In this document: positions 8,271 through 30,446 of the stretch, piece by piece
Position numbering within the stretch: position 1 is the first letter of the stretch
How the letters are laid out: the number at the start of each line of letters is the position of its first letter
Source: Pseudomonas fluorescens HK44
GTDB taxonomy: Bacteria; Pseudomonadota; Gammaproteobacteria; Pseudomonadales; Pseudomonadaceae
Assembly: GCF_000217955.3 (NCBI RefSeq)
Contig: NZ_AFOY02000015.1
Span: 1,543,744 to 1,607,743 of the forward strand
DNA length: 64,000 nt
Direction: 5' to 3'
Program-made: the position numbers and the translations under genes
The notes under the pieces: generated by a model
Told to the model about the DNA's origin: nothing
Databases searched by the model: none
Seen by the model: the letters and a program-made list of their open reading frames with translations, nothing else

Positions 8271-9056
8271 ATGAACGCTCGTTTACTGCTCTGCTCCTTA
8301 CTCACGTTCAGCGTCCAGGCCTATGCGCAGAATGCGCCCTCGCACCTGGACCAGGTGATTGAACGGGGTCATCTGAAGGTCTGTACTACCGGCGATTACA
8401 AGCCTTACACCTATCTGCGCGCAGAGGGCGGATACGAAGGGATCGATATCGCCATGGCCCAATCCCTGGCGAAAAGTCTGAACGTTGACGTGCAATGGGT
8501 CCCCACCACCTGGAAGAGCCTGATGACGGATTTTCTGGTTGACCGTTGCGATATCGGCATGGGCGGCATTTCGGTTTCACTGGAGCGGCAGAAGAAGGCG
8601 GCTTTCAGCGACACGCTGGGCGTCGACGGAAAAATCCCGTTGGTGCGTTGCGAAGATAAACAACGCTATCAAACCGTCGAACAGCTCAATCAGTCTTCCG
8701 TGCGGTTGATCGAGCCGGCAGGCGGTACCAACGAAGTATTTGCCCGCACTCACTTGCCCAACGCCACGCTGACCCTGTTTCCGGACAACGTGACGATTTT
8801 CGAACAATTGCTGGAAAACAAGGCCGACGTGATGATCACCGACGCCTCTGAAGCACGCTATCAACAGAAGCTCAAACCCGGTTTGTGCGCAGTCAACCCC
8901 GAGCAGTACTTGCAGTACAGCGAGAAAGCCTACTTGCTGCCTCGTGATGACGTGGCCTGGAAGGCCTATGTGGATCAGTGGCTACACCTGAGCAAAGCCA
9001 CCGGCGCCTATGATGCGGTGCTCGCCCAGTGGCTGGCGACCGCTCCCGGTCACTGA
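8271..9056 (+). CDS. Periplasmic substrate-binding-type protein, cyclohexadienyl dehydratase (PheC) like
   Basis: 261 residues with a signal peptide ending VQAYAQ near residue 20. The body is a bacterial type-3 solute-binding fold: GHLKVCTTGDYKPYTY near residue 34, GGYEGIDIAMA, DRCDIGMGGISVSLERQ near residue 90, GGTNEVFA near residue 148 and a C-terminal EKAYLLPRDD. The pattern of these blocks, the length and the position of Cys residues follow Pseudomonas PheC, a periplasmic enzyme converting arogenate and prephenate to phenylalanine and phenylpyruvate. A plain amino-acid binding protein is the alternative; no permease genes adjoin it, which favours an enzyme. Confidence 0.75.
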   Translation: MNARLLLCSLLTFSVQAYAQNAPSHLDQVIERGHLKVCTTGDYKPYTYLRAEGGYEGIDIAMAQSLAKSLNVDVQWVPTTWKSLMTDFLVDRCDIGMGGISVSLERQKKAAFSDTLGVDGKIPLVRCEDKQRYQTVEQLNQSSVRLIEPAGGTNEVFARTHLPNATLTLFPDNVTIFEQLLENKADVMITDASEARYQQKLKPGLCAVNPEQYLQYSEKAYLLPRDDVAWKAYVDQWLHLSKATGAYDAVLAQWLATAPGH

Positions 9057-9275
9057 ACACTGACCAGCGCCCGGAATGCCTCACTCGCCGCGCTGCGATA
9101 AGCGCCCTTGCGACTGAGCAAGGCCACCGTGCGTTGCGGTAACGCCGGTTGCAGCGCCAGCGGGCGCAACCCCGGCAGTTACAGACTGTTGAAACGCGCC
9201 AGCAACGGGCCGATCAGGTAAGCGGTGAAGGTCGGCGTCATGGCCAATCGCAACGAGCCGCGTGTCAGGGCCTGC
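9050..9275 (-). pseudogene. Remnant of a LysR-family regulator gene
   Basis: Reading the minus strand, ALTRGSLRLAMTPTFTAYL and GPLLARFNSL are the start of a LysR (CynR-like) effector domain. They run into a TAA, and directly after it the same strand continues LPGLRPLALQPALPQRTVAL and RKGAYRSAASEAFRALV, the C-terminal end of such a protein, ending with TGA at 9050-9052. The helix-turn-helix half and the middle of the effector domain are missing. The stump overlaps the last codons of the pheC-like gene. Confidence 0.75.
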
Positions 9276-9314
9276 ACAGAACAAGGTTTTGTCTGAGGCT
9301 CAGCGCGCTGAATA

Positions 9315-9680
9315 TCAGTGGCTGATGGCCGTCTTGGCGTAGGAATCGCGATCGATATCCAGAATCTCGACGCACAGTTGCACATCAACACTGGCGGGCC
9401 ATTCGCAGAGGTCCTGCACCACCGCCAACAGGCTTTCGGACAATTGCTTCTTGATCGCGGGCGAGCGCCCGCTCAGCAACGCCAGCTTCACATGCACAAA
9501 ACCACGTTCGCCCAGCCCGGTACCGACCCGAAACGCACCGACCTGCACCGCACGGCTCTTGATATCGTACTCTGCGGAAAACTGCCCGGACGCCACCAAT
9601 GCGTTGTTCAAGCGCAACAACGCCACATCGGCATTGAGGTTCGGCAGGTTGGCGGTGTATTCCATGTGCAGGTGAGGCAT
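9315..9680 (-). CDS. 5-carboxymethyl-2-hydroxymuconate isomerase family (tautomerase superfamily)
   Basis: 121 residues starting MPHLHMEYTANL, with the N-terminal proline expected as the catalytic base in tautomerases. VGAFRVGTGLGERGFVHVKL and SGRSPAIKKQLSESLL are typical of the CHMI (HpaF) family. The reading frame stays open another 46 codons upstream, but the short start follows an AGGAGC box and puts Pro at position 2. No homoprotocatechuate genes are near, so the pathway is unclear. One base of uncertainty in the start coordinate is possible. Confidence 0.85.
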   Translation of the reverse strand: MPHLHMEYTANLPNLNADVALLRLNNALVASGQFSAEYDIKSRAVQVGAFRVGTGLGERGFVHVKLALLSGRSPAIKKQLSESLLAVVQDLCEWPASVDVQLCVEILDIDRDSYAKTAISH

Positions 9681-9777
9681 TGTGATGCTCCTTGAGGATT
9701 GAACGAAGGGGCGTAGATATACCATAGAGCGCCCCTGCCCTTCCCCGCGAAATGCCGGGCAAGCAAACCGCCGCCGG

Positions 9778-10722
9778 TTACCGTCCGAGCAACTTGTCAC
9801 TCTGTATCCCGGACACACCGCGCTCGCTCATGAAGGCTTCGAGGCGTGCACGCAGCCAGCGTTCGGCGGGGGCGGTATCGACGTGACTCAGCCAGACCAT
9901 GGACAGGTCCAGGGTCGGCGTCTTGAACGGGAACGGTTCCATGAACAACTGACCCGAGGCGGCCATCGCCGCTGCCGCGTAGTCCGGCAGGCTGGCAATC
10001 AGGTCCGTCCCCGCGAGCAGGGCCGGCAAGGCACTGTATTGCGGCACCGAGAGCACCACTTGGCGTTTGCGACCGATCTCGGCCAGCCACTCATCGGCAT
10101 AGCCACTGACATTGGCCGTGTGCGAAACCAGCACATGCGGCCGCGAACAGTACTCGTCGAGGGTCAGCGGCGTATCGCAGGCATCGGCGCGCAGTATGCA
10201 GGGCTGAATGTGCCGCAACAGTTTGCGCTTGGCATTGGCCGGCAGGCCGCGGGTCTGGCTGATGCCGACCGTGATGCCACCGGACGCGAGCAAGTCCGGG
10301 ATCCGCCAGTAATCGACATGCTGAACCACGAACACCACTTGCGGCGCTTCCTGGCGCAATGCGCGCAACAGCGGAGGCAGCAGACCGAATTCGACGTCAT
10401 CGGACAAACCGATGCGAAAGGTCATGGTGCTGCTGGCAGGATCGAAGTGGTGGGTCAGGCTCAACGCCGAGGACAACGCGTCCAGCGCCGGCGAGAGGTG
10501 TTGAATCAGTTCCTCGGCCCGTGCCGTCGGCTCCATGCGGTGGCCGACCCGGATAAACAGCGGATCGTTGAACATCACCCGCAAACGGTTGAGTGCCGAG
10601 CTGATGGTCGGTTGCCCGAGAAACAGCTTCTCTGCCACTCGCGTCACATTGCGTTCGAGCATCAGCGTCTCAAACACCACCATCAAATTGATGTCGGCCT
10701 TACGCAGTTCATTGCGGTTCAT
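9778..10722 (-). CDS. LysR-family transcriptional regulator (NodD/LeuO-like branch)
   Basis: 314 residues. The winged helix is at residues 8-68 (DINLMVVFETLMLERNVTRV, then FLGQPTISSALNRLR), followed by a linker helix and an effector domain with FRIGLSDDVEFGLLPPLL near residue 100. A GGAGG box seven bases upstream fixes the ATG at 10720-10722. Its neighbours on both sides are small or decayed genes, so the target is unknown. Confidence 0.9.
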   Translation of the reverse strand: MNRNELRKADINLMVVFETLMLERNVTRVAEKLFLGQPTISSALNRLRVMFNDPLFIRVGHRMEPTARAEELIQHLSPALDALSSALSLTHHFDPASSTMTFRIGLSDDVEFGLLPPLLRALRQEAPQVVFVVQHVDYWRIPDLLASGGITVGISQTRGLPANAKRKLLRHIQPCILRADACDTPLTLDEYCSRPHVLVSHTANVSGYADEWLAEIGRKRQVVLSVPQYSALPALLAGTDLIASLPDYAAAAMAASGQLFMEPFPFKTPTLDLSMVWLSHVDTAPAERWLRARLEAFMSERGVSGIQSDKLLGR

Positions 10723-10889
10723 CAGCTGCCTCCGGTCTTCAAGACTGGCGACAGTTTATGAAGCTGTGGGGAGCGCCGTCTATCGGCAAGAAGGATTCCC
10801 CGTTCGGCCCCCTGCCATCGGGACCTGCGACACGGAGCTGCCCGATGTGTCTGAGCAGCCCCGATTCAACACACCAACAGGTAAAGACC

Positions 10890-11081
10890 CTAGATTTCCT
10901 TCACCGATGTTTCGTTGTGGACACTTTTGATCAACCCGATCACGTGCAGGCAATCCGCCTTGTTGATGTACGACTCGCCGCTGGCAACCGTCTCATGATT
11001 GGCCGCCCTTAAACGCCAGCGCCATTGGCCCTTCCCGGTAAGCGGGGTGCCTCGCGACTGCCTGTAGATCTCAAAGTACAT
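10890..11081 (-). CDS. DUF1508 (YegP-like) small protein
   Basis: 63 residues starting MYFEIYRQ. The motif WRWRLRAANHETVASGESY followed by NKADCLHVIGLIKS is one DUF1508 repeat; E. coli YegP has two. A perfect AAGGAG lies seven bases before the ATG. The function of the family is not known. It stands alone downstream of a LysR gene. Confidence 0.85.
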   Translation of the reverse strand: MYFEIYRQSRGTPLTGKGQWRWRLRAANHETVASGESYINKADCLHVIGLIKSVHNETSVKEI

Positions 11082-11359
11082 GGTTCGCTCCTTGCGACTG
11101 CTGATAACGACAGACTCCTGGTCTGTACACGCAGCGTAGACGAGTGATTCAAGATTGAGCGGCGATCAAAAGTAAGCAGACATTACCCAAAAAACACTCC
11201 GCCCCGACGAAAGCCAACAGACACCAAGGCCAGTAAAAAGGCTGACTGAACACCGTCACTTTTCAGGAAATCGTACTTATTTTTCATACAGAGTCTGGGC
11301 CGCATTCATCCCGATCCGCTCAAGAAAAGCACGGAACAAACAAGCTCGCTCCGTCTTTG

Positions 11360-11600
11360 CGCCGTCCCAATACCGGTCTTCTACGACAGCTATGCGCCCG
11401 ATGATGAGCACCATAACGGGTAGAAATCAAAAGCAGCTCAATGTTCCAGGGTTACTCCTGGGTCGATCCGAGCGCCTGCTCCTTCACCGAAGACGGCTGG
11501 TTGCGCACAGGTGATATCGGCGAGTTCGATGACGAGGGTTTCCCCTCGCGGGTAAGCCTTAGATATAAACGACATCTTCGCTCGGTACCCAATGCAGGAT
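11360..11600 (+). pseudogene. Remnant of an AMP-forming acyl-CoA ligase gene
   Basis: Two pieces survive on the + strand. At 11360-11405 the frame reads AVPIPVFYDSYAP, like the ligase segment after the first core helix. From 11441 another frame reads MFQGY, then FTEDGWLRTGDIGEFDDEGF, which is the A7-A8 core of adenylate-forming ligases. About 250 residues between the two and the whole C-terminal domain are missing, and the following bases lose similarity. Confidence 0.7.
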
Positions 11601-11828
11601 GCAGGCAAGATCGTGCCACGGGTAGTGCTGAGGATCCGCGCGAAGACAGCTGTTCTCATGGAGGAACGGCAAGTTGGCATCACTGGCTTTTTGTCCGCTG
11701 CCACAGGCCGTACAGCGCAGATAGACACCACTCAGATGCCAGTGGCGGGAAAACTTCAACACCAGGCTGTCCAGTCCCAGCAGTCTTTGCGGTGGGTGCT
11801 TGTCCGCCAGCTCGAACCCGTCATTCAT
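11559..11828 (-). CDS. Small Cys/His-rich protein coupled to a chemoreceptor gene
   Basis: 89 residues. Its ATG overlaps the TGA of the chemoreceptor gene as ATGAATGA, a classical re-initiation junction, which is the main reason to believe it is translated. The central part has a C-x2-C pair (RCTACGSG) and a later H-x3-C (LHENSC), a spacing that could hold a zinc ion. The rest is rich in aromatic residues ([20 protein letters not shown]). I do not recognise the family; the C-terminal part enters the region of the ligase remnant. Confidence 0.55.
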
Positions 11829-13410
11829 TACGTTCACGCCCCCAGAATTGCGCCGACAGCAGTTGAAGGCGCTCAGCCAGTCTGGCGACATGGGCAGCAG
11901 TTGTGCGGCTCTGGCTGCTGGCAAGCACATTACTTTGGGTGGCTTGACTGATACCGTCCAAGTTGCACTGGATGCTGTCACCCACCGCACTCTGCTCTTC
12001 TACAGCGGCAGCTATTTGCACACTCATGTCGCTTATCTCGCCGACTCGCCGGGTGATCCCATCCAGTGCCCTGGCGGCAAACACTGCCTGTTCAACACTG
12101 GCTTCGGCCTTACTGTGGCTGCGTTGCATCGCGACCACGGCATCACCCGTGGAGCGCCGTAAAGTATCGATGGTGCCCTGGATGTGCGCGGTGGATTGCT
12201 GGGTGCGCGAAGCTAGCCCGCGCACCTCGTCGGCGACCACTGCGAAACCGCGTCCAGCCTCGCCGGCGCGAGCAGCCTCGATGGCGGCGTTGAGGGCGAG
12301 CAGGTTGGTCTGTTCGGCGATGCTCTGGATGACCTCCAGTACGCGGTTGATTTCTTGTCCATGCTGTTCCAGTTGGTGAATCACCGCGCTGGTCTGTTGC
12401 ACCTCGCTGGCGAGACCGTCGATGTGTTGGCGGGTTTGCTCGACCAGTTCTCGACCTCGGTCGGTTTCTTGATTGGCCAGGTTCGCCGAGTTGGCGGTGA
12501 GCTGAGCGTTGCGCGCCACTTCCTGCACACTGCTGGCCATCTGGGTTATGGCGCTGGCCACCTGGGCAGTTTCCCCTTGCTGCTGCAAGGTCGCGCAGTT
12601 GTTATTGTCCACTGCGGCGACGAGCTCTTCGGCTTCTTTGTTCAACTGACGGGCCGAGTCGGCAATGCGTCCGACTACTGCCCGCGTCTCGGCTTCAAGC
12701 ATTTGCAAGGTGAAATCGATCTGTCCAAATTGGTCGCTGCGGCCGCTGTACAGCATCTGGCTTAGCGGATTATCGGCGATATTTTTGGCTTTTCGGGCAA
12801 GGGCGTCGAGAGGAAGCAGGCTATAGCGCAGCACACCGCCGATCAGCACGCTGAATAGCGGCGCAGCGATTGCTGCATGGTTCCAGGATAGGGCGCCCGC
12901 CAAGCCTAAGGCGGTAAAACCGAGCAGATTCAGCCCAGTGCCAACAAGTACTAAGCGCATGCCGACGGACAGTCGTGACGGATACAGGCAGTGTGTTTTT
13001 TTACCGCTGCGCAACTGTGCATAGAGATGTTCGGCGGTGTCTACCAGTGCTTTCGGTGGGAGCGTGCGAACGGACTGGTATTCCACTATGTCACCCTTGC
13101 GCTGCATCGGCGTGACGTAGGCGCTGACCCAGTAGTGGTCACCATTCTTACAGCGATTTTTTACCAGCCCCATCCACGAGCGTCCGGCCTTGAGGGTCTG
13201 CCACAGGTGGGTGAAAGCTTCTGGCGGCATATCCGGGTGACGCACGATGTTGTGATTGACACCCAGCAACTCAGCCTCGCTGAAGCCGCTGATGTTGATG
13301 AAATCCGGATTAACGTATGTGATGGCTCCCTTGGGGTTGGTTGTTGAAAGAATATTCGCATTGGCGCTGAACTCGACAGCACGACCACTGAGCGGAAGAT
13401 TAATTTTCAT
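11821..13410 (-). CDS. PAS-domain methyl-accepting chemotaxis protein (Aer-like)
   Basis: 529 residues. An N-terminal PAS domain (residues 10-120) contains [19 protein letters not shown] and the NIVRHPDMP motif of Aer-type redox/oxygen sensors, then two hydrophobic stretches near residues 150-190 with almost no periplasmic loop, and a signalling domain with the invariant hairpin tip [20 protein letters not shown] near residue 385. It probably senses energy or redox state through FAD, as Aer does, and signals to CheA. The start at 13408-13410 follows a strong GGAGG. A 46-base gap separates it from the globin-GGDEF-EAL gene on the same strand. Confidence 0.92.
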
Positions 13411-13456
13411 TATTTGCCTCCTGAGCTGATGGATAAACGCTGGGTGCCTACCGTGC

Positions 13457-15676
13457 TTACAGCAACGGGCCCCCAACCCCCTCGAAACAGTCCTCTGCGC
13501 TGAACAACCGTTGCATCTGCGCGGCAGGTCGTGGTCGGCTAAACCAGTAGCCTTGGGCGTAATGGCAGCCTTCACTGACCACAAAGTCGAGTTGTGCCGG
13601 GCTCTCGATGCCCTCGGCCACTACTTCCAAGCCAAGGCTACGGCCAAGACCGATGATCGCTTGGCTGATCGCGCTCTGTTTTTTGTCGGACGGGATGCCG
13701 TCGATGAAACTTCTATCCAGCTTGAGTATGTGCAGCGGAAAGCGTGTGAGATAACCAAGCGATGAGTAACCGGTGCCAAAATCGTCCAGCGCCAACAACA
13801 CGCCAAAGCGAGTCAATTCGTTCAGACAGGCCAATGTATCCATGTCGTCATGCATCAGTTGGCTTTCGGTAATCTCCAGGATCAGGCTGGCTGGCGGCAG
13901 GCCGCTTTCTTGCAGGATTTCGATTAGCCGGAGCGTGAAGTCGGCTTGTTGCAACTGGAGGCTGGAGATGTTCACCGAGCAGCGCAGATGGTCATGTCCG
14001 GCCAGCTGCCAGAAGCGGGTCTGCTGGCAGGCTTCACGCAATACCCATTCGCCGACGCGGATGATTTCCCCCGACTCTTCCAGCGCCGGAATGAACTCCA
14101 GTGGTGAGATCAAGCGTTCGCCATGGCGCCACCGTAACAGCGCTTCGACCCCGGACAGAATTGGCGCCCCCTGATCAAGACGATAGATCGGTTGGTAGTG
14201 CAGTTCGAACTCGTTGCGTTGCAGCGCCTGGCCCAGAGCGGACTCCAGTTCCAGATGGTGTTGTGCGGTGCCTTGCAACGCTTCGCTGTAGTGGGCGAAC
14301 CGCGCCTTGCCGGCAGACTTGGCTCTGTAGAGGGCAAGGTCGGCGGCCTGCAAGACATCCAGCGCTTTGCCGTTATCGTGCAATGGAGCGATACCAATGC
14401 TGGCACTGACCACCAGGGTACGACCGTCCATGTGCAACGGTTGATGCAGGTTGTCGAGAATGCGTTGGGATACTCGCTCGGCGTCGCGGTCGCAGGTGAG
14501 TTCATGAAGCAATACGATGAACTCGTCCCCGCCGAAGCGAAATAGCTGATCACCAGGGCGCAGAGAGTCCCTCAAGCGCTGCGCCACTTCTACCAGCACG
14601 CGATCACCAACGTTGTGGCCGAGACTATCGTTGATCAACTTGAAGCGGTCGAGGTCGATGAACAGCAGCGCCTCGTGGGCACCTCCCTTGCGCAGTTTCA
14701 TGAAGGTTTTCTGCATTTGCTCGTCAAGGCGCATACGGTTGGCCAGGCCGGTCAGCGGGTCATGGCGGGCGGCATGTTTGAGGCGCTGCTCGGCGTCCTT
14801 GCGTGCACTGATATCGGACTGTGAGCCGGCCATGCGTAACTGGCCCGGCGTCGTCGCTTCGGCGACTCCACGTACCAGAACCCACAAATAGCTGCCATGG
14901 TTTTGGCGGATGCGGTACTCATGGTGGACAAAGGAGGTCTGCCCTTGTAAATGGGCGTCGATGGCCTGGCGAAAATCCGGCAGGTCGTCCGGATGCACGC
15001 GACCGAACCAACTGGCACTGCTCTCGCCGATGCTGTCGCGGCTGAGGCCGAGCATGCTGGCCCAACGTTCGGAAACATACAGTCGATCCTGATCGACATG
15101 CCAGTCCCAGATGCCGTCGCTGGCGCCGCGTAGCGCACGGGCGAAGCGCGCCTCGCTGTCTTCCAGCGCCTTGTGCTGGGCCGCACTGTAGGTGTCGATG
15201 GCCAAGGTCATGTCGAAGAACACCGCCTTCAACAGACTTGAGTAAAGCTTGGCCTGGTCGCTGTTGTCGAACACGCTTGCAAGCATGTCGTCGAGGTATA
15301 GACGGTAGCTGCCAAGGTACCACTTCAACTCCAGGCCGACCTGTTGGTGGATCACACCGATGCGCAGACGGCCGTTGACGTAGGCGTCATCGTAGGGGCC
15401 GCCCCACAAACGCTGGTAATACTCGGCCTGGCTGTGCTTCAGGCGAGCCGTGACCTGCGGCGCGCGAAGTAGAGCCGACGGCGTGGAAAACTGCTCCAGG
15501 TGACGGTACAAGTGATCGACGAAAGCCTGCTGAGCCGGGGCCATCTGCTGGGCTGCTGCGCCGAGTCGCTCGGCATCTTCAGCGCTCCAGTTGAGAAAGC
15601 GGAAGCGCTCGATGATCTCCTCGTGATCAAGACGGATACGTGTAAGCAACGCCGTCAGATCTTTTGTCACCTTCAT
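13457..15676 (-). CDS. Globin-coupled PAS-GGDEF-EAL c-di-GMP enzyme
   Basis: 739 residues. Residues 1-165 form a globin-coupled sensor: [12 protein letters not shown] is the A/B helix region and [19 protein letters not shown] near residue 100 carries the probable heme-ligating His. A PAS-PAC segment (residues 180-300, ending [12 protein letters not shown]) follows, then a GGDEF domain with the intact RFGGDEF site near residue 397, then an EAL domain with SGVEALLRW near residue 510 and [10 protein letters not shown]. Both catalytic sites look complete, so it could make and degrade c-di-GMP under oxygen control. It lies just upstream of the PAS chemoreceptor in the same direction. Confidence 0.93.
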
Positions 15677-15712
15677 TTTCAATTCCCTGTGTTTGTACAG
15701 ATGCCTTTTTGC

Positions 15713-15771
15713 TGACAAAAAAAAGCGCCGTGACAACCCGTTCTGGTCAAGAACGGGTTGTCACGGCGCTT
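15713..15771 (-). terminator. Strong rho-independent terminator
   Basis: A perfect 22-bp stem (arms 15723-15744 and 15750-15771, five-base loop) is followed, reading the minus strand, by eight T. It ends transcripts of the small gene at 15848 before the globin-GGDEF-EAL gene. Confidence 0.9.
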
Positions 15772-15847
15772 CGTCTTTCAGGCCCAATGTCCTGCTCGGC
15801 AAAGCCGGTTCCCGCATTGAGCGGAACCTACTGATGGCATATTTACA

Positions 15848-16159
15848 TCATTCTGGATTGTCTGACAATTTATCCAGCAGTGCAACCAAGCGCCGCCGTA
15901 GAAGCCCCAGTTCGCGAGATTTGAAGGCGTGTCGAGTCTGCTCCAAAACCTCGGTGGCCTCCGCCAACGCGGCATACACCCACCCAGCCGGCCCTAATTG
16001 TGCTTCACCGATCCAGCGGCAAAACGGCGCCGCCCTGCAATCACTCGGCGCGCTCAGCACCTCGCAATCTGGTGCTATGTGAACCAACAGTTGGCGCAAT
16101 TGATCGGCTAGCTCACGATCGTTGCAGATAATTCGGGCTGTCTGGTTGGACTCGTGCAT
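15848..16159 (-). CDS. Small protein of unknown function
   Basis: 103 residues starting MHESNQTARIICNDRELA. The N-terminal half looks like a mixed alpha/beta fold of the receiver-like type (ARIICNDRELADQLRQLL), the C-terminal half is helical and Arg/Leu rich. No catalytic motif is recognised. The ATG at 16157-16159 has a GGGGA ten bases upstream; a TTG six codons earlier is possible. It is separated from the downstream sensory genes by a strong terminator and is divergent from benA. Confidence 0.6.
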   Translation of the reverse strand: MHESNQTARIICNDRELADQLRQLLVHIAPDCEVLSAPSDCRAAPFCRWIGEAQLGPAGWVYAALAEATEVLEQTRHAFKSRELGLLRRRLVALLDKLSDNPE

Positions 16160-16308
16160 AAAACTGCATCCCCACAAGGTTGACGCGATGTTTACACCAC
16201 CGTCCGTGTCGTTTTATTGATTCAAATCAATGCCTAAGCCGATCCTATGGCTTTCCACCTACCCAATGAAACTCATCACTATTCGCTTCACTCCGGGATT
16301 CCTGAAGC

Positions 16309-16344
16309 TGCATGAAACGGATACAGGTCTGCACGGATAGGATA
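16309..16344 (+). promoter_or_regulatory. XylS/BenR-type double operator (Pm-like)
   Basis: Two direct copies of TGCA-N6-GGNTA: 16309-16323 and 16330-16344, separated by six bases. This is the half-site sequence and spacing of XylS on the TOL Pm promoter, including the linker start caggt. It lies 62 bases before the benA start, so a BenR/XylS activator encoded elsewhere very probably drives benAB in response to benzoate. Confidence 0.85.
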
Positions 16345-16406
16345 TTGCCGGGCCCGCCGACTCTCCACGCTGTAGATACCTAATAACAACAATGGAGTCT
16401 CAGGCC

Positions 16407-17768
16407 ATGCCCATCGGCATCGAGTACCTCAATTCTTTGCTTGAAGAAAACCGTGGAAAAGGCGTTTACCGCTGCAAGCGGGAAATGTTCACCGACCCTC
16501 GCTTGTTCGATCTCGAGATGAAGCAGATCTTCGAAGGCAACTGGCTCTACCTGGCCCACGAGAGCCAGATCCCGAACATCAACGATTTCTACACCACCAC
16601 CATGGGCCGCCAGTCGATCTTTATCGCGCGCAACAAGGACGGTGTACTCAATGCCTTTCTTAACGCCTGCAGTCACCGCGGTGCGATGTTGTGCCGGCAC
16701 AAGACCGGCAACAAGGCGTCCTATACTTGCCCCTTCCATGGCTGGACCTTCAACAACTCCGGCAAGCTGCTCAAGGTCAAGGATCCGTCCGAAGCGGGCT
16801 ACCCGTCGAGTTTTAACTGTGAAGGCTCCCACGACCTGACCAAGGTTGCACGCTTCGAGTCCTATCGCGGCTTTCTGTTCGGCAGCCTGAACCCTGATGT
16901 CGTTCCTTTGGCCGAGCATCTCGGAGAATCGGCGAAGATCATCGACATGATCGTTGATCAATCCGCCGACGGCCTGGAAGTGCTGCGCGGTTCGTCCAGC
17001 TACATTTACGAAGGGAACTGGAAGCTGACCGCCGAAAACGGTGCTGATGGTTACCACGTCACTTCCGTGCATTGGAACTACGCGGCTACCCAGAACCAGC
17101 GCAAGGAACGCCTGGCGGGCGACAACAACCCGACGATGAGCGCCGGCGGTTGGGCCAAGAATGGGGGTGGTTTCTATTCCTTCGATAAAGGTCACATGCT
17201 GTTATGGACCCGTTGGGCCAATCCGCAAGACAGGCCTCTCTACGAGCGTCGCGATGAGCTGATCGGTGACTTCGGACAGGCTCGCGCTGACTGGATGATC
17301 GGTCACTCGCGCAATCTGTGCCTGTACCCGAACGTGTACTTGATGGATCAGTTCAGCTCGCAGATCCGCATTGCCCGGCCGATCTCGGTCAACCAGACCG
17401 AAATCACCATTTATTGCATCGCGCCCAAAGGCGAGAGCGACGACGCTCGTTCCAAGCGCATTCGCCAGTACGAGGACTTCTTCAACGTCAGTGGCATGGC
17501 CACTCCCGATGACCTGGAAGAGTTCCGCTCCTGCCAGGTGGGTTATGAAGGCAGTGCCGGCTGGAACGATATGTCACGCGGTGCCATGCATTGGATCGAA
17601 GGGGCCGATGCGACAGCACAGGAAATCGATCTGCACCCGCTGCTCAGTGGCGTACGCACCGAAGACGAGGGCCTGTTTGTGCTGCAACACAAGTATTGGC
17701 AGGAAACCATGCTCAAGGCGCTATCGGCCGAACAGGACCGGTTGATTCGGGTGGAGGAAGCACAATGA
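16407..17768 (+). CDS. benA: Benzoate 1,2-dioxygenase large (alpha) subunit
   Basis: 453 residues. A Rieske [2Fe-2S] domain has CSHRG (Cys88, His90) and CPFHGW (Cys108, His111). The mononuclear iron site is in [16 protein letters not shown] near residue 210 (Asp, His, His). The overall pattern matches BenA rather than AntA, notably the [20 protein letters not shown] block. With the beta subunit it dihydroxylates benzoate to a cis-diol using electrons from a reductase. I prefer the ATG at 16407, nine bases after a GGAG, to the in-frame ATG at 16392. It overlaps benB by four bases and follows a Pm-like operator. Confidence 0.9.
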
Positions 17769-18253
17769 GCGTTTCCTACGAAACAGTGTGCGACTTCCTC
17801 TCCCGCGAAGCGCGCTACCTCGATGACAAGGACTGGGACAACTGGCTGGAACTCTACGCCGTCGATGCAAGTTTCTGGATGCCGTCCTGGGACGACGATG
17901 ACGAGCTGACCGAAGACCCGCAGAAAGAAATTTCGTTGATCTGGTACGGGAGCCGTATGGGTCTCGAAGATCGGGTGTTCCGAATCAAAACCGAGCGCTC
18001 CAGTGCCAGCATTCCCGACACCCGTACCTCACATAATTTGAGCAATATCGAGATCATCGAGCATGGCGAAGGCACCTGCCGGGTACGTTTCAACTGGCAC
18101 ACCCTGAGTTTTCGCTACAAGACGGTCGACAGCTACTTCGGCACCTGCTTCTACACCCTGGATGTCAGTGGCGAACAGCCGCTGATCAAGGCCAAGAAAG
18201 TGGTGCTGAAGAACGACTACGTTCGCCAGGTCATCGATATCTATCACCTGTGA
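17765..18253 (+). CDS. benB: Benzoate 1,2-dioxygenase small (beta) subunit
   Basis: 162 residues starting [20 protein letters not shown], with [20 protein letters not shown] and a C-terminal [14 protein letters not shown] and [11 protein letters not shown], the beta-subunit cone fold of aromatic-ring dioxygenases. It has no cofactor and completes the alpha3beta3 oxygenase. The ATGA overlap with benA makes the pair translationally coupled. Confidence 0.92.
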
Positions 18254-18355
18254 ATGAGGCCGTATTCAGCTGTTGTCTTTGTTGGGCGCATGCCGTTTTG
18301 CTGCATGTCGCCAATTCCGAAAATGGCATTTCGAGTGCGGTTCCGTGAGGTCGCC

Positions 18356-18445
18356 ATGAACCCCAGGATTGCATTGAACTTCGAGGATGGGATTACCCAC
18401 TTCATCGATGCCACGCCGAATGAAACCGTGGCCCATGCCACTTAG
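18356..18445 (+). pseudogene. benC: Stump of benC (benzoate dioxygenase reductase)
   Basis: After benB, an ATG preceded by GAGG opens MNPRIALNFEDGITHFIDAT, which matches the first residues of BenC, and ends after 29 codons at TAG (18443-18445). The full protein is about 336 residues with a plant-type ferredoxin, FAD and NAD domains. Everything after the first beta strands, and all of benD, is gone; the sequence passes into the catA leader 113 bases later. Confidence 0.85.
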
Positions 18446-18558
18446 GTGGTGGTGACCTGGGCTGAATGCCCAGCCGTGACATTAGCCAGCGCTGTTGACG
18501 TTTGGCCAGTACTGAAAAAACCGTTGATTCATAAGACCGATAAGAGAGGTTAACCAGC

Positions 18559-19497
18559 ATGAACGTGAAAATTACCCATACTCCCGAAGTCCAGGCCTTC
18601 TTCAAGGAAGTGAGCGGCTTGGGTAATGACCAAGGCAGCCCGCGCCTGAAGCAGCTGATGTTTCGGGTCGTAAATGAAATCGCGAAAATCGTCGAGGACC
18701 TGGACGTCACCGATGACGAATTTTGGGTACTGATTGACTATCTGAATCGCTTGGGGAGCAATAACGAAGCAGGCTTGTTGGTGGCAGGCCTTGGTATCGA
18801 GCACTTCCTGGACTTGCTTCAAGATGCCAAGGATGAGCAAGTTGGTCTTGTCGGTGGTACTCCGCGCACGATCGAAGGTCCTCTCTATGTGGCCGGTGCT
18901 CCGCTGTCCCAAGGACAAGCCCGGATGGATGACGGCAGTGAAGACGGTGTCGCCACTGCTTTGTTTCTGCAAGGCGTGGTGCGCGATGCCGATGGCAATC
19001 CGGTCTCGGGCGCAGTGGTTGACCTTTGGCACGCCAATACCCAAGGGGCTTACTCCTATTTCGATTCGCGCCAGTCGGAATACAACTTGCGTCGCCGTAT
19101 CGTCACCGATTCCGAAGGCCGCTACCGGGCACGCTCCATCGTACCGTCGGGCTATGGCTGCAATCCTCAGGGTCCGACCCAGGAATGCCTGGACCAGTTG
19201 GGCCGCCATGGTCAGCGGCCGGCGCATATTCATTACTTCATCTCGGCGCCAGGCCATCGCCATCTGACGACTCAGATCAATCTTTCCGGGGACAAGTACC
19301 TGTGGGATGACTTTGCCTATGCCACCCGTGATGGTCTGGTAGGTCAGGTGAACTTTGTCGAGGGTAATGCACAGGCAGAACAGCTCGGCATAGTGGGACG
19401 TCACGCTGAACTTGAATTCGACTTCCAGTTGCAAAGTGCGCCGAGCCCTGAAGCCGAACAGCGCAGCAATCGTCCAAGGGCCTTGCAAGAGGGCTGA
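18559..19497 (+). CDS. catA: Catechol 1,2-dioxygenase
   Basis: 312 residues. Intradiol cleavage of catechol to cis,cis-muconate with non-heme Fe(III). The ligands are visible: Tyr165 in TQGAYSYFD, Tyr199 in PSGYGCNPQG, His223 and His225 in RPAHIHYF. The N-terminal helical dimerisation domain is present. A GAGAGG box lies ten bases before the ATG. It follows the benC stump in the same direction, so it probably came with the ben genes; the usual catB and catC are not here. Confidence 0.95.
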   Translation: MNVKITHTPEVQAFFKEVSGLGNDQGSPRLKQLMFRVVNEIAKIVEDLDVTDDEFWVLIDYLNRLGSNNEAGLLVAGLGIEHFLDLLQDAKDEQVGLVGGTPRTIEGPLYVAGAPLSQGQARMDDGSEDGVATALFLQGVVRDADGNPVSGAVVDLWHANTQGAYSYFDSRQSEYNLRRRIVTDSEGRYRARSIVPSGYGCNPQGPTQECLDQLGRHGQRPAHIHYFISAPGHRHLTTQINLSGDKYLWDDFAYATRDGLVGQVNFVEGNAQAEQLGIVGRHAELEFDFQLQSAPSPEAEQRSNRPRALQEG

Positions 19498-19513
19498 GTC
19501 ACCTGTCTGACGG

Positions 19514-19556
19514 GGAGTTGGGCTAGCCATTAATCCGCGGCCCAGCTCCTTTCGTT
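19514..19556 (+). terminator. Probable terminator after catA
   Basis: Arms 19514-19523 and 19540-19549 (ggagttgggc with one mismatch) close a 16-base loop and are followed by TTTCGTT. Moderate strength. Confidence 0.6.
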
Positions 19557-19781
19557 CAGCTTTATTGAGGCTGGTTTAAAGCGGGTGGCTGATGCCTGGG
19601 CGGTCATCGCCCCCCCCCCTTCGAGCCACTTGTTTTTTGTTTGCCGGGTTTAACTTTCAGCAAAAAAGCAGCTTCCGCCTGTGGTGAATCGCAAGGGTAA
19701 AAGTCAGTATCAGAGATCGTAGATCGAGTCAGTCACTACACTTCTGGACTTGCCCCTTCAAAACCGGACACCAACTCCCCG

Positions 19782-20657
19782 TTAAATTGATGCCACTGCC
19801 AAGCGCCTGAACTCCCTCGGTGAACGGTAGTTCAAGGCGCTGTGCGGATGCTGCTCGTTGTAATGTTCGAAGGCAATTGCCAAGTTACGCAGCGCCGTTT
19901 CTCGATCCGGCTTGGGCATGTGCGCCACGTAATCACGCTTGATCGTCTTCACGAAGCTCTCTGCCATGCCATTACTCTGTGGGCTACGCACCGGTGTGGT
20001 CACCGGCTGCAAGCCGATCTGTCGAGCAAACAGGCGCGTCTGTTCGGCGGTGTAGGCCGAACCGTTATCGCTGAGCCACTGCACCGGCGTTGCAGGCAGT
20101 TGATCACCGAAGCGCTTCTCCACGCTTTCCAACATCAAGTCGCGGATGTCATCGCCGCTGTACCCGGTTGGGCTGGCGACCCAGCCGATGGCTTCGCGAT
20201 CACAGCAGTCCAGGGCGAAGGTCACGCTCAGTTTGGCGCCGTCCTCGCAACGGAATTCAAAGCCATCCGAGCACCAACGCGTATCGCTGGTTTGCACCGC
20301 AATACGGCCTTCGTGCCGACGCGGCACGCCGGGTTGTTTGATCCGGCGTTCAAGCAGCAGGTTGTGATCACGCATTACCCGGTAAACACGCTTCACGTTG
20401 ATCGCGGGTAGCAACTGGGTTTCACGGGCACGACGCAGCAATCCCCAGACTCGACGGTAGCCATAGCTGGGCAGTTCGCTGACCTGTTGCTGGATTTCGG
20501 CCACCAACTCAGCGTCGTTCACAGGCCTGCTTCGCCGTGTCTTGGGCGATACCGATTGCTTGATTCGAACCGTTAATTGCGAGCGCGCCACACCGAGACA
20601 TTCGCTGACCAGCTTCACTGGTCGTCCCCCGGCAACAAGGGTGAGTGCGCAATCCAT
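19782..20657 (-). CDS. IS3-family transposase OrfB
   Basis: 291 residues with an rve integrase core. The DDE triad is in [10 protein letters not shown] near residue 129, [11 protein letters not shown] near residue 193, and [18 protein letters not shown] near residue 226. HTH_21 type helix ([13 protein letters not shown]) precedes it. In IS3 elements the active enzyme is an OrfAB fusion made by -1 frameshifting; the overlap with OrfA near 20650 (cgaaaatgg) is where this would occur. The frame is intact. Confidence 0.92.
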
Positions 20658-20968
20658 TTTCGCGACCGGGCGATCTCCATGGCTTCTTTGAGGATTTCCG
20701 CTTCCATCGTTTTCTTGCCCAACATCCGTTGCAGTTCACGGATCTGCTTGAGCGCATCGCTCAGCTCGGAGGCCGGCACCACGGCTTCGCCCGCGCTGAC
20801 CGCCGACAGGCTGCCGTCCTGATACAGCTTGCGCCACAGGAATAACTGGTTGGCATTGATGCCGTTGCGCCGAGCGACGACCGACACACTTTGCCCTGAC
20901 TCAAGGCTCTCGCGAACCATGGCCAGCTTTTGCTCTGGACTCCAGTGGCGCCGCCGCTCCTGGCCCAA
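20615..20968 (-). CDS. IS3-family OrfA (HTH protein)
   Basis: 117 residues. A helix-turn-helix of the HTH_8/Tnp_1 type ([38 protein letters not shown]) is followed by a leucine-zipper stretch [20 protein letters not shown]. It binds the terminal repeats and supplies the N-terminal half of the OrfAB transposase. Confidence 0.9.
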
Positions 20969-21216
20969 AAGGCACCTTCCTCTATCTCAGCGTGGACATT
21001 CTTTTGTTGAATGGGCCTGTTCGAAGCACACCGGCGCAACGGCAAAAATCGGCCGATTCTGTTGAAAAAGTCGGATTTTTCCGCTCCCCTGAACTCAGGC
21101 ACTACCAGCAGCACCGGAGAACCTACTGGGATTAAGTAAGGGTACTCAGGCTCCGACTGCAGCGCACACCCATCATTCACAAAACTTCCTGCTTCATCGA
21201 GACAGCCCTCGCCCAC

Positions 21217-22890
21217 TCAGATTTTGAACTGCTGCACCAGGACCTCCAGACGATTGCCAATGCCATACAGATCGTCCACCGTTCTGACGCCGATCTGGGT
21301 CTGCTCCGCCACACGATCGCTCGCTCGGGCAATCTGATGCACGCTGCGGTTGATTTCTTCCGCCACACTGGTCTGTTCCTCAGCGGCGCTGGCGATATGG
21401 GCGTTCATGGTGTTAATGGTGGCAATCAGTTCAACGATGGTGCCCAGAGACTGACCCGCCTGACCGGCGTGGGCACTGGCTCCTTCGCTGGCTTCGCTGG
21501 ATTGGCGCATGGCCCCGACGGCGCCGCTGGTGGTGCGTTTCAGACGCTCGATCATTGTCTGGATTTCCTGGGTGCTGCCCTGGGTGCGGTTGGCCAGAGC
21601 ACGCACTTCATCGGCCACCACGGCAAAACCACGCCCAGCTTCACCGGCCCGGGCCGCTTCAATGGCTGCGTTGAGTGCTAGCAGGTTGGTTTGCTCTGCA
21701 ATCGAGCGGATGACATCCAGTACCGTCACGATCGCGGCCACATCATGCTGCAGACCTTGCAACGAGACGCCGCTGTTGGCCAAGTCAATCGTCAGCGCCT
21801 GGATACGCTCAATACTGCCGTTGACCACCTGCCGGGCATGTTGGGACTGCTGATTGGTTTCCAATGCCGCGTCGGAAGCACCTTGTGCACTGGTCGCCAC
21901 CTCTTGGGCCGACGACGACATTTGATTGATGGCCGCCGCCACTTGATCGGTTTCATGGCGCTGTTGCTCCATAGCGCTGCCCATCTGCTTGCTCTGATCG
22001 GCCACATGCCCCACCGCGCTGTTCAGCTGGCGGGTCATGACGGCGATCTGGCTCACAAGCCCATGGATCTTGCCCACAAAGGCGTTGAATGACTGGGCTA
22101 ACTGTCCAAGTTCATCGTTGCTGCTGACCGGCAACCGACGCGTCAGATCGCCCTCGCCAGCGGCGATTTCGTCAAGGCTGTTACGGATCAGCAACAACGG
22201 TCGCATGCTGTTGTTGACCAGCAACAACGCCAACACCCCCAGCACCGCCAACAGAACCAGGGCAATCAGCACAATGCCCACGACAAGGCTGCGCACTTGC
22301 TGGTGGATATCGCCACGCACCTGCTCAACCTGGGCTTCGATGCTGTCAAGGTTGATGGCCGTAACAACCACCATGTCCCACTTGGGCAAATAAAAGCTGT
22401 AAGCCAGTTTCGGCACCACTTTGTCGGTGTTGACCAATGCGCCAGAGTAATTGACGAAGTGACTGTCATTCTTTGCTGCAGCGACCATGTCACGGTTCAG
22501 ATAGACCCCGTTTTTGTCCTTACGCTCGCTCATATTGGTGCCCACGCCTTCGTTGCTGTCACCGCGAAACAGGCGCACCACCTGGCTGTCGTATCCAATG
22601 AAATAACCGTCTTCGCCGTATTTCATGCGCGACAATCGGGCAATGCCCAAGGCGCGCTTCGACAGATCGCCGTCCGTCCCGTTGGCGTAAAGATCCACCA
22701 CCGCCGTACGCGCAATGCTGGCGTAATCCTCAAGCCGGGAACGGCTCTCTTGCAGCAGCCGCTCACGGGTCTGCTGCACGTCCTGTTCGGCACGAGACAG
22801 CAGCGTGGTCGTAATGCAGATGCTCAGGACCAAGGCGAATAACAACACTGGCAGCAGGGTCAGCAGGAGTATTTTTTGTTTGAACGACAT
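21217..22890 (-). CDS. Methyl-accepting chemotaxis protein with Cache sensor
   Basis: 557 residues. TM1 at about 8-30, a periplasmic single-Cache domain ([26 protein letters not shown]) to about residue 190, TM2 near 200-225, a HAMP domain ([20 protein letters not shown]), and a signalling domain with [20 protein letters not shown]. Single-Cache receptors of this kind often bind small carboxylates. It has no methyltransferase-binding pentapeptide at its end. It lies beside the tricarballylate locus, so a tricarboxylic acid ligand is a reasonable guess only. Confidence 0.9.
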
Positions 22891-22959
22891 AACCCGATTC
22901 CTTCATCCAAGACTACAGGGCAACACCTGAAACCGGCTACCTTGGGGCGGCGAGCATCA

Positions 22960-23279
22960 AGAGCGCCTTACCAAAGGGCGATGTCGCAGGTGAAATAGAG
23001 GCGATTGGGCGTGGTCTCCTCACAACGCTTGAACACCGTGACCTGGACAAACAGCTAATCAATATCAGCGTCCGGATGGAGTAACGGATTAATGATCGCC
23101 ACCTTACTGGTTTGCGGGCAGCCACCGTCGATGCCGTCTATTTCCAACTCATGTTCCGAGCCCATCAAATTGAGCAGCTGTCCGTCACGCTATTCAATGG
23201 CAACCGGCAGATCTCAACCGAGAAATAGAGGTCCTTTGGAGATGCCACCACGCATCAATACGTAGAGAATTCGTTGCAT
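22960..23279 (-). pseudogene. Decayed PrpF/GalD-family isomerase gene
   Basis: From the ATG at 23277-23279 the minus strand reads MQRILYVLMRGGISKGPLF, stops, then LMGSEHELEIDGIDGGCPQT followed by SKVAIINPLLHPDADID, stops again, and LFVQVTVF. These are the conserved N-terminal blocks of the PrpF family (aconitate isomerase PrpF, 4-oxalomesaconate tautomerase GalD). At least three in-frame stops and the loss of the C-terminal two thirds make it a pseudogene. Its position next to tcu genes fits a former aconitate-isomerising step. Confidence 0.8.
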
Positions 23280-23470
23280 GAATACCAACCTTAGTTTAAT
23301 CATCATGGAAATTAACACTCATAAGACAATGAGTATTGGCAAATTAAATTTTCTTCAAATGCAAATATCGTTTCAATAATTCCGACCCGCGCATAAAACA
23401 TGCACACATGTCTTATCGACAGAGTGCATTACAGCCAAAACCATTTGAATTAAAGTCTTTAAATCTGTTT

Positions 23471-23511
23471 GAAAGAAAAAAACATCTGGCCCAGTCCTAC
23501 ACCCGGCCAGA
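23471..23511 (-). terminator. Terminator after the OprD-family porin gene
   Basis: Arms 23505-23511 and 23485-23491 (tctggcc) with a 13-base loop are followed on the minus strand by TGTTTTTTTC. It lies 70 bases beyond the porin stop. Confidence 0.65.
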
Positions 23512-23582
23512 CAAACACCGTACCGCGACCTCATAAAATGAACGACACTCGTCGGCGCAGCAAAGGGCTCCTAGCTGAGTTG

Positions 23583-24890
23583 CTATAGAAGCGGAATGCT
23601 ATAGCTTACTAACACCCTATTCTGATCCTGATCACGGGCGGCTTCGCTGTTGGATTTGCCGTTACGCCAACCGAACCCAACGCCTTTGAACGTTCCTGAC
23701 TGAAGAACGTAGTCCAGGCTGATATCTCTTTCCCATTCTTTCTGATTGTTGCCAGTCGTTGTCTTGATATTGTCCCCAGAGAGGTAAATGACCGAAGCTT
23801 TCAAGCCAGGGACACCCAAAGCGGCGAAGTCGTAAGCGTACTGACCGAAAGCTGTGCGCTCGCCTGCGCGGGTGAAGCTTTGGATCAAGCGATCGGTATA
23901 CAGATAAAGGCTTGCCCCACCAGCGCCCTTGTCTACCAGGCTGCCCTGATTGAGTTGAGTGAAATTACTGCCGTCCGACACACTTTGGTACCCCGCAGTA
24001 ATCGCGTGGCCACCCAGTGTGTAAATCAGCGCGGCACTCCAGGTACGGTTGTCGATTTCGCCATCACCGTTCTTGGTGTAGCCACTCACTCTGTAGCCTT
24101 TAGTACCGGAGCTGTTTTCGCCTGAGGAGTCTGTTTTGAAGTAGCGCAGGTCGGTTTTCAGGGACTGATTATCCAAGAAATTAATGGTGTGAATCAGTCC
24201 AAAAAATTGCTGGGTGTAATAGTTCTCGAGGTTGGCGTAATAATATTGAGCTGTCAGGTCTTTGGTAACTTTCCAATCGCCCCCGGCGAAGTCGAACTGG
24301 TTGCTTTCACGCGTACCGCCAGTAACGGCCAGCCCCGTCTGATCGCTCGAACCACGGCCTGTTGCATGTTCGATTCGGCCTCCCGTCAGCGTCAGATCCT
24401 TAAACTCGCTTGAGGTGATTTGACCACCTTCGAAAGCTTGTGGAAGCAGGCGTCCATCGTTGGCAACCAGAATCGGAAGTTTTGGAATCAGCGTACCGTA
24501 ACGAAGTTCGGTCTTCGACATTTTGACTTTACCGGTCAGCCCCAGCCGGCTCCACTCGTCGACGGCGCTATTGTCACTATCAGAAGGAATCATGGTGCTG
24601 CCGACATGCCGTCCTTGGCCGCTGTCCAGGGTAACACCCAGCAAACCCAGAGCATCAACGCCAAAACCGATCGTGCCATCGGTGTATCCCGACTTATAAT
24701 CCAACATGAAACCTTGCGCCCACTCTTCTGTTTTCGAAGGGGCAGCGGTGCCATCACGGTTGTCGTTATTGAAGTAGAAATTCTTCATTCCCAGCGTGGC
24801 TTTACTCTCACTTAGAAAGTCAGCATACGCTTGGGTACTCAGAGCGATACTGCTCAGCGCGAAAGTTATAGCAATTTCTCTCTTATTCAC
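23583..24890 (-). CDS. OprD-family outer-membrane porin
   Basis: 435 residues with a signal peptide ending AYA near residue 23 and then DFLSESKATLGMKNFYFNND, the OprD N-terminal strand. WAQGFMLDYKSGYTDGTIGF and TSSEFKDLTLTGGRIEHAT are typical of OprD channels, and it ends with Leu in VLVSYSIPLL as a beta barrel should. The start is GTG at 24888-24890, with GGAG about nine bases upstream. Next to tcu genes it most likely passes tricarballylate or related acids. It is similar in pattern to the opdH product at 51443 but clearly a different gene. Confidence 0.93.
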   Translation of the reverse strand: MNKREIAITFALSSIALSTQAYADFLSESKATLGMKNFYFNNDNRDGTAAPSKTEEWAQGFMLDYKSGYTDGTIGFGVDALGLLGVTLDSGQGRHVGSTMIPSDSDNSAVDEWSRLGLTGKVKMSKTELRYGTLIPKLPILVANDGRLLPQAFEGGQITSSEFKDLTLTGGRIEHATGRGSSDQTGLAVTGGTRESNQFDFAGGDWKVTKDLTAQYYYANLENYYTQQFFGLIHTINFLDNQSLKTDLRYFKTDSSGENSSGTKGYRVSGYTKNGDGEIDNRTWSAALIYTLGGHAITAGYQSVSDGSNFTQLNQGSLVDKGAGGASLYLYTDRLIQSFTRAGERTAFGQYAYDFAALGVPGLKASVIYLSGDNIKTTTGNNQKEWERDISLDYVLQSGTFKGVGFGWRNGKSNSEAARDQDQNRVLVSYSIPLL

Positions 24891-25210
24891 CTATAGCGCT
24901 CCGGTTTTTTTATTTTAATTAACATAATCAATACGAAAGATAAACAACCCGCAACAATACAAACAGAGGACTGCCAGACAGCTTTTATTTCTATAAAAAC
25001 ATGTAGCACGAGCCTTTAAATACTTAAACTTCTACTGCCACTTTTCCAGCCATTATTTAACCAACTCCAAAGCATCGCCTATCAACCCCGACAACGCCAA
25101 TCATATTAAACATACAGCTCCCTGACTAAACTGATCACTCAGCAGTAATCATTACTACTTCTACGAGCATGCTTTAGGCAGGGAAGATATTGTTCGGTCA
25201 ATATGTTTTG
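24891..25210. other. AT-rich intergenic segment
   Basis: 320 bases, visibly richer in A+T than the neighbours, between tcuC and the porin gene. It should hold the porin promoter; I see no gene or strong terminator in it. Confidence 0.5.
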
Positions 25211-26524
25211 CTAGTCGGCGGTTTGAACCAAGTCAGCCACTGACCTATTACGTTGTCGATACAAGACCATCGTTGCCGAGAACCCGCACAACGCTGCGAA
25301 CATCAACCAATATGCCGGAGACGCCTTGTCACCGGTTACCTGCACCAGAAAGGTCGACATCGCCGGGGTAAACCCACCAAAAATTGCGGTCGCCAGGCTG
25401 AAGGCCAAAGAGAAACCCACCACCCGTACATTCTGTGGCATGACTTCGGTCAACGCCGCGACCATTGCACCGTTGTACATGCCGAAGAAGAACGAGAAGT
25501 ACAGCAAAACCACCAACAATCGCTCAAAACTGGCGGCTTCAGCAAGCCAATGCATGGCCGGATACGCGGTGAAAATGCACAGCAGCGAGATCGCCAACAG
25601 CAGTGGACGACGGCCGATTCGATCTGAAATCGCGCCGCCGATGGGCAACCAAATGAAATTGCTGAGGCCCACAAACAACGTCACCACCAAGCTATCAGTG
25701 GTGCTCAAGTGCAGCACCGTTCTTCCGAACGTCGGGGTGTATACGGTGATCAGGTAAAAGGAAGTCGTGGTCATCGACGCCAACAGACCGCCCGCCAGCA
25801 CTGTGCGCCAGTTGTCCCGCATGGAGCGGAACACTTCGGCAGTACTTGGGTGATGCGCGCGAGCCTTGAACGCTTCGGTTTCCTGCAACGAACGACGAAT
25901 GATGAAAATGAACGGGATGATCACGCAGCCGATGAAGAACGGAATGCGCCAGCCCCACGCAGCTATCTCGGTTGCATCCAGATAGGCGTTGATCCCATAG
26001 CCCAACGCCGCCGCAAGGATGATCGCGATCTGTTGGCTGGCCGATTGCCAACTGGTGTAGAAACCAGTACGGCCCGGCGTTGCGATCTCGGCCAGATAAA
26101 CCGACACACCGCCCAGCTCCGCACCTGCCGAGAAGCCCTGAAGCAATCGACCCAACAGTACCAGAATCGGTGCTGCGACTCCGATGCTGGCGTACCCTGG
26201 CACCAACGCGATCAGTACCGTGCCGCATGCCATGATCGACAGCGTCACAATCAAACCCTTGCGACGCCCCACCTTGTCGATGTAGGCGCCGAGTATGATC
26301 GCACCCAATGGACGCATCAGAAAACCCGAACCGAATACGGCGAAGGTCATCATGAGCGAGGCGAACTCACTGCTTGCAGGGAAGAACGTCTGGGATATGT
26401 AGGTTGCATAGAACCCGAACAGAAAGAAGTCGAACTGTTCGAGAAAGTTGCCGCTGGTAACCCTTATGATAGCGCCGAATTTTGACGTCCGGGATCGGGT
26501 GACTTCCGTTTTTATTTTGGTCAT
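25211..26524 (-). CDS. tcuC: MFS transporter, tricarballylate/citrate:proton symporter type
   Basis: 437 residues, twelve predicted membrane segments. The metabolite:H+ symporter signatures are present: [20 protein letters not shown] with GRRKGL near residue 80, [17 protein letters not shown] near residue 131, and DRIGRRPLL in the second half. It lies directly after tcuB in the same direction, with 47 bases between, as tcuC does in Salmonella. The substrate is inferred from this context. Confidence 0.88.
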
Positions 26525-26571
26525 GGTTACGTTGATACTCGATTTTATTATTGGAATAGAGGTCGTGACGG

Positions 26572-29170: not shown

Positions 29171-29276
29171 CGTCTCTCCTCAATTCGCAAGCAGACGGGA
29201 ACGAGTTGCTGCTGGCGAGTGGGCGAACAGTAGTGCGACGTTCAAGGGGGCGAAAGGCGAGTTTGTACATGGGGGC

Positions 29277-29291
29277 TTTAGTTTTACTAAA
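29277..29291. promoter_or_regulatory. Candidate LysR-type operator upstream of tcuA
   Basis: The dyad TTTAGTTTTACTAAA has the T-N11-A form of LysR sites and lies about 107 bases before the tcuA start and 124 bases after the end of tcuR. It is a candidate for TcuR binding. Confidence 0.5.
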
Positions 29292-29414
29292 GGGGGGCGA
29301 AGTGAGCTTTCTTCGGTCAGCGGCCCCCTTGATCGCAACGGTATGCGAGGCGACCAACTGGTGAGTGGGCGGCATTGCCTGTAAGGCATACGTCCGCCGA
29401 TAGTGTTCTAAGTC

Positions 29415-30344: not shown

Positions 30345-30446
30345 GGGGAAGCGACTCCGGACGAAGGATAAACGAGTAGTCTACCTTTTGTCTGAACTGC
30401 GTGTCGGCCATCGGCTTGGTGATTACCGATAGGTCGGCTTTTTCCT

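Follow-up and report, generated by a model that had tools for sequence, protein, structure and literature searches.

Organization of the locus

We analyzed a window of 64,000 nucleotides from Pseudomonas fluorescens HK44, in which three adjacent minus-strand genes encode, in reading order, a Protoglobin-PAS-GGDEF-EAL protein, a PAS chemoreceptor, and a small Cys/His protein. Table 1 lists the coordinates of these genes and of the features discussed below. Judged by its sequence, the chemoreceptor is Aer-like: its best match in the PDB is 31cj, "Aerotaxis receptor" (E 1.1e-54), and the third, 8dik, carries the same name (E 1.2e-32). Because of the domain content of both proteins, the globin-PAS-GGDEF-EAL gene and the receptor look like an oxygen-related c-di-GMP/taxis unit. 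A related arrangement is found in P. putida, where the neighboring genes aer1 and pp2258 encode an Aer receptor and a c-di-GMP enzyme, each containing a PAS domain; the order is reversed relative to the window pair, and no microprotein is mentioned in the excerpt of that report (PMC6093933).

Table 1. Coordinates of features at the receptor locus and of the leader at a related locus
Feature	Position	Strand	Remarks
89-aa Cys/His microprotein gene	11559..11828	-	Ligands C39, C42, H57, C61
Overlap of receptor stop and small-gene start, ATGAATGA	11821..11828	-	8 bases
28-base 3'-end identity	11560..11587	-	Four orthologues, synonymous sites included
Acyl-CoA ligase remnant	11441..11545	+	Opposite strand, beyond the stop of the small gene
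Aer-like PAS chemoreceptor, 529 aa	11821..13410	-	PAS and MCP signaling domain
Protoglobin-PAS-GGDEF-EAL gene, 739 aa	13457..15676	-	Upstream of the receptor
Conserved leader	L034:3520-3685		Upstream of small-ORF operons

The small gene runs uninterrupted for 89 residues on the minus strand, from an ATG at 11826-11828 to a stop at 11559-11561. An earlier note on this DNA held that the frame starts inside the chemoreceptor stop, and this is borne out by the 8 bases that the two genes share. The codon usage of the 89-codon frame scores weakly, at 6.3 bits against a cut-off of 18, using a simple codon scorer. The same scorer made the gene calls in the window and around the family copies described below, with start codons beside the copies set by a rough rule. 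No minus-strand promoter-like site was found in 11100-16400, and no minus-strand terminator-like site was found within the receptor or the small gene. A perfect 20-bp inverted repeat followed by a minus-strand T run lies at 15724-15770, just upstream of the globin-GGDEF-EAL gene. An Rfam search up to E 1 returned nothing at 9000-16500 of the window; on 16 related loci it returned PAGEV RNA on three and PtaRNA1 on one.

The earlier note also placed the tail of the gene over old ligase sequence and proposed that the gene had taken up junk. The plus-strand ligase match ends at about 11542-11545, ~14 bases short of the stop at 11559, and all four orthologues have the same 28 bases at the end of the gene, the second base of the stop codon being the last of them. 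We therefore rejected a junk tail over the ligase, since the remnant ends short of the gene and the tail is common to the four receptor-linked loci. The 28-base run, which was noticed before it was tested, was reached by 85 of 20,000 codon shuffles, and a 25-base part of it occurs at a single place in the genome when up to 3 mismatches are allowed. A second function of this run at the DNA or RNA level is possible. Alignment of the window with genome G128 extends to 11550, which is 9 bases beyond the stop.

Conservation and selection

The 89-codon length is unchanged in the four orthologues, and the six comparisons among them give dN/dS values of 0.21-0.42. For the receptor, three pairs were comparable, and they give 0.12-0.16. 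Four other reading frames of the orthologues give ratios of 1.59, 0.99, 1.09, and 0.50, the last being an antisense frame. Across the wider family described below, we kept 95 pairs with >55% identity, ≥8 changes, and ≥45 shared codons, and left 25 with saturated dS out of the median. The remaining 70 measurable pairs, which are not independent, have a median dN/dS of 0.22; 69 lie below 0.5 and all 70 below 1. We rejected a chance frame on the dN/dS of both the orthologues and the family pairs. By these sequence comparisons, the small frame is a protein gene under selection.

The microprotein carries a C-x2-C (C39, C42) and an H-x3-C (H57, C61). The suggestion that this spacing marks a metal site is supported by the family, as all four ligands are present in 104 of the 107 copies in which the four columns are filled. 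This count covers 112 fetched copies and the window, and the copies came from a profile that rewards those ligands. Checked as the earlier note had proposed, the Cys and His are kept far beyond close strains. From this ligand conservation, the microprotein is probably zinc-binding.

A dispersed Pseudomonas family

The microprotein is a member of a family for which Pfam, NCBIfam, and PHROGs offer no model. The window protein itself gave no match in Pfam and NCBIfam up to E 1, and none in PADLOC. Scanning 30 members one by one gave scattered weak PHROGs and Pfam matches, none of them common to two members. We built profile A1 from 30 diverse rows, the window sequence among them. Its residues W20, C29, C32, F45, H47, C51, P60, and L64, numbered after the trimmed first row, are invariant over the 30 rows. 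The family signature consists of the C-x2-C and H-x3-C ligands with a W before and PW-x2-L after; the window protein carries all of it and matches the profile at E 4.0e-24, although its own sequence went into the profile. Among PDB sequences, the profile had no match.

Profile A1 found at least 106 places in at least 54 of 198 genomes of the window's genus, with up to 8 per genome; at most 29 candidates were scored per genome, so copies may have been missed. Of the class, 273 other genomes were drawn, and none of them had a match. A separate draw of 198 genomes from the taxonomic family, spanning 19 genera, gave matches in five genomes including the window's own, all of the window's genus. With the window protein alone as query, a plasmid search returned 28 records, all Pseudomonas, and another member returned three. 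There was no listed gene under the match in 22 of the 28 records, for which the gene table is incomplete. Thus, the family is dispersed over Pseudomonas plasmids and many chromosomal sites and is accessory in the window's genus.

The window genome has a second copy, found with the single protein alone (57% identical, E 8.9e-23). Among the full-length copies found, only those linked to the receptor are nearer to the window protein. Phage cargo was rejected, as phage records searched with two members and viral contigs searched with three queries held no copy. A mobile element with flanking repeats was also rejected; repeats between both flanks of a copy were found in 2 of 112. A pair of copies in genome G050 sits in a stretch that looks prophage-like.

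None of the open-licence PMC papers listed by our literature searches deals with this microprotein family. Its multiple copies are under selection and have an invariant metal motif, and in our searches only Pseudomonas carried them. It is new as a family; as a mechanism, its novelty is modest until tested.

Plasmid-type operons

Three plasmid ORFs belong to the same family: WP_343177157.1 (p1, strain 4810-S13), WP_290467299.1 (pD4A-46), and an unlisted frame of pWW0. All share the C-x2-C...H-x3-C, W, and PW signature with the window protein. As in the window, the start overlaps the upstream gene, through ATGA on p1 and one shared base on pD4A-46. However, the upstream cistron of the plasmid members is another small plasmid ORF, whereas in the window it is a chemoreceptor.

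We compared the position of all 112 copies with the gene upstream. Eight overlap a same-strand gene or lie within 10 bases of one; seven of these are behind small plasmid-type ORFs (five by a 4-base overlap) and one, in G128, is behind the receptor. Elsewhere the same-strand upstream gene is 11-60 bases away for 2 copies, 61-250 bases for 24, and beyond 250 bases for 43. The upstream gene is on the opposite strand for 29 copies, and none was called for 6.

In the plasmid-type operon, a leader and ORF1 are followed by one or more of the Cys/His gene, ORF3, and ORF4 in varying combinations, with cistrons often joined by 4-base overlaps, ATGA or GTGA. ORF1 was assigned by position, with a full reading in L160 only. 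Modular micro-operons built from varying sets of these four kinds of cistron were seen on Pseudomonas plasmids and related loci, at L160-L167, L034, L036, L082, L123, and L127. Five small plasmids, four of them from P. fragi, carry ORF1-ORF3-ORF4 and one P. lundensis plasmid carries ORF1-ORF4, all without the Cys/His gene. ORF3 or ORF4 is present, not always adjacent, at 18 of the 110 loci with a family copy. ORF4 has a weak likeness to KorA, at E 0.011 and far below the cut-off of that model.

The leader consists of a terminator-like hairpin followed by two imperfect direct repeats, as judged by eye, and was seen at 13 loci (L034, L032, L036, L041, L049, L082, L112, L114, L116, L123, L126, L127, and L128). 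With the L034 leader as query, we found 13 plasmid records, all Pseudomonas; eight of them were read, and two more are L032 and L034. We also read 7 of the 28 plasmid records with a family match, and ArdR is near the family copy on two. The second copy in the window genome has a plasmid-type leader and an ORF4 remnant. Therefore, at least this second chromosomal copy is tied to the plasmid set.

Predicted structure and known zinc proteins

An AlphaFold2 model of the microprotein from 7 sequences has a mean pLDDT of 72.4. It predicts a helix at 13-29, strands between 30 and 47, and a helix at 70-80, with loose ends at 1-14 and 85-89. The mean pLDDT is 83-89 over residues 21-60, 76 over 61-70, and 81 over 71-80. 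A fold search with this model against the PDB and viral models gave no match at E ≤ 0.001, and VIA-align over 168 chains gave no known fold (best Z 2.9).

BED and other C2HC zinc fingers have one C-x2-C...H-x3-C-like site, as does the window microprotein. However, the Pfam scan of 30 members gave no BED family match, and the best BED structure in the fold search reached E 3.4 over 31 columns. TraR/DksA proteins are about 70 residues long, are encoded on plasmids and phages, and combine a helix with one zinc site, but their ligand set is unlike that of the window microprotein. They gave no match among the 30 members (Pfam, E 0.1) or in the fold lists, and may be distant relatives. These small zinc proteins (PMC9239242) are among the known systems closest to the window microprotein.

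Linkage to the receptor

The receptor was found at E ≤ 1e-180 in 27 of 398 genomes, the window's own included. We read the loci of the window and of 21 of the 26 other genomes, 22 in all. The Protoglobin-PAS-GGDEF-EAL neighbor is near full length at 18 of the 21 other loci. The small gene lies behind the receptor at four of the 22, namely the window, G128, G676, and G813, the last three having receptors about 89-91% identical to the window receptor. It was not found in the fetched stretches of the 18 other loci, three of which have receptors 85-87% identical. G126 has a receptor orthologue (77%) that is not followed by the small gene, and a family copy lies elsewhere in the genome. The earlier note had raised the prospect of a stoichiometric partner of an Aer-like receptor and had proposed a search behind such receptors in other pseudomonads. 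That search found the gene at 4 of 22 loci, all close relatives, and the idea of a general partner is not supported. The small gene is therefore a captured member of a wandering family and not a general receptor partner.

All four orthologues retain an ATG at the end of the receptor gene, and three of them (the window, G676, and G813) retain the overlap. The receptor of G128 stops 12 bases earlier, which leaves a 4-base gap before the small gene. In G844, which lacks the gene, the 20 bases beginning with the receptor stop equal those of the window, after which the sequences diverge. Therefore, the small gene may owe its first codons to old receptor flank.

In the receptor tree, a branch that sets the four loci with the gene apart from the rest has bootstrap support of 44% on DNA and 1% on protein. 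The tree is compatible with a single gain and also with a gain plus a loss. For the three nearest loci without the gene, it allows both loss and earlier branching. Close relatives that have the same receptor operon either with or without the microprotein provide a small natural experiment.

Seen from the family, a chemoreceptor lies within 100 bases of a copy in 2 of 100 loci and within 2 kb in 5. Of the two within 100 bases, one is in G128, whose locus is orthologous to that of the window, and the other is a convergent receptor in G023. Receptors occur at 11 places in 10 of the 100 loci (0.96 Mb), where the receptor density of the window's genome would predict about 5.6 (uncorrected P 0.027). 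The 11 places are not independent, as they include G128 and probably related loci. This excess leans toward a partner of the receptor, and we do not build on it.

Origin and possible role of the microprotein

We favor, at a probability of about 0.72, a functional C2HC microprotein of a dispersed family that was captured behind the receptor, is translated by coupling, and has an adaptor role. A family copy would have been captured directly behind the globin-PAS-GGDEF-EAL and Aer-like receptor pair in a few related strains. Translation of the small gene would most likely occur by re-initiation or coupling where the receptor gene stops, and the microprotein would therefore be made together with the receptor; we infer this co-translation from the overlap alone. 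The product may act as a protein-binding adaptor whose N-terminal helix, small zinc knuckle, and C-terminal helix dock on a host protein and modulate its function. As the structural model comes from 7 sequences and matches no known fold, this role is suggested by size and motif.

A doubtful alternative is that the microprotein is a factor of plasmid biology, acting in host take-over, regulation, or counter-defence at plasmid entry, with this role kept on the chromosome and the position behind the receptor supplying expression only. Copies do lie on conjugative and cryptic Pseudomonas plasmids, two of the seven read with ArdR nearby, and the leader and companion cistrons are common to several loci, including the weakly KorA-like ORF4 (E 0.011, far below cut-off). 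However, no companion cistron turned up in the sequence fetched for 92 of the 110 loci that have a copy, PADLOC has no match for the window protein, and the phage records and viral contigs, searched with two members and three queries, respectively, gave no copy. It is quite unlikely that the microprotein is instead a dedicated partner, tuning oxygen taxis or c-di-GMP by binding to the receptor or to the globin-GGDEF-EAL enzyme. The gene is missing at 18 of 22 receptor loci, including those three with 85-87% identical receptors, 90 of 100 loci with family copies have no receptor in the fetched stretch, and G126 has both genes unlinked. A partner would nonetheless fit the start kept at the receptor end in the four orthologues, the purifying selection on the receptor-linked copy, the globin c-di-GMP enzyme encoded upstream, and the receptor excess near family copies. 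It would also fit aer1 and pp2258 of P. putida, described as bicistronic, in opposite order, in the excerpt of PMC6093933. Finally, a chance open frame or insertion junk at the 3' end of the receptor is scarcely credible: the rearrangement boundary beside the ligase remnant and the weak codon score would suit it, but the family-wide invariant residues and purifying selection argue against it.

Beyond the favored reading of a captured family member, Pseudomonas might carry microprotein cistrons as an exchangeable pool, whose members join one another, and occasionally host signaling genes, via ATGA-type overlaps. We consider such a pool unlikely. If it exists, a joined cistron would be co-translated at once, and a wandering zinc microprotein could thereby become a stoichiometric add-on of an oxygen-taxis receptor.

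Other observations

On a P. fulva plasmid (L033), a truncated copy with a 46-residue open frame is flanked by a PAS chemoreceptor gene on one side and an EAL gene on the other; TniB/TniQ genes are nearby, and the orientation is unlike that of the window. In G023, seven of the eight family places are on a single 180-kb contig (C2) and one is on a 5.6-Mb contig. Within the window, a 14.4-kb stretch (16307-30725) is missing at the matching place in G128 and adjoins a tRNA-Ser (30847-30936). The gene beside this stretch and the tRNA-Ser is one that we take to be purC, and the stretch looks like an accessory island.
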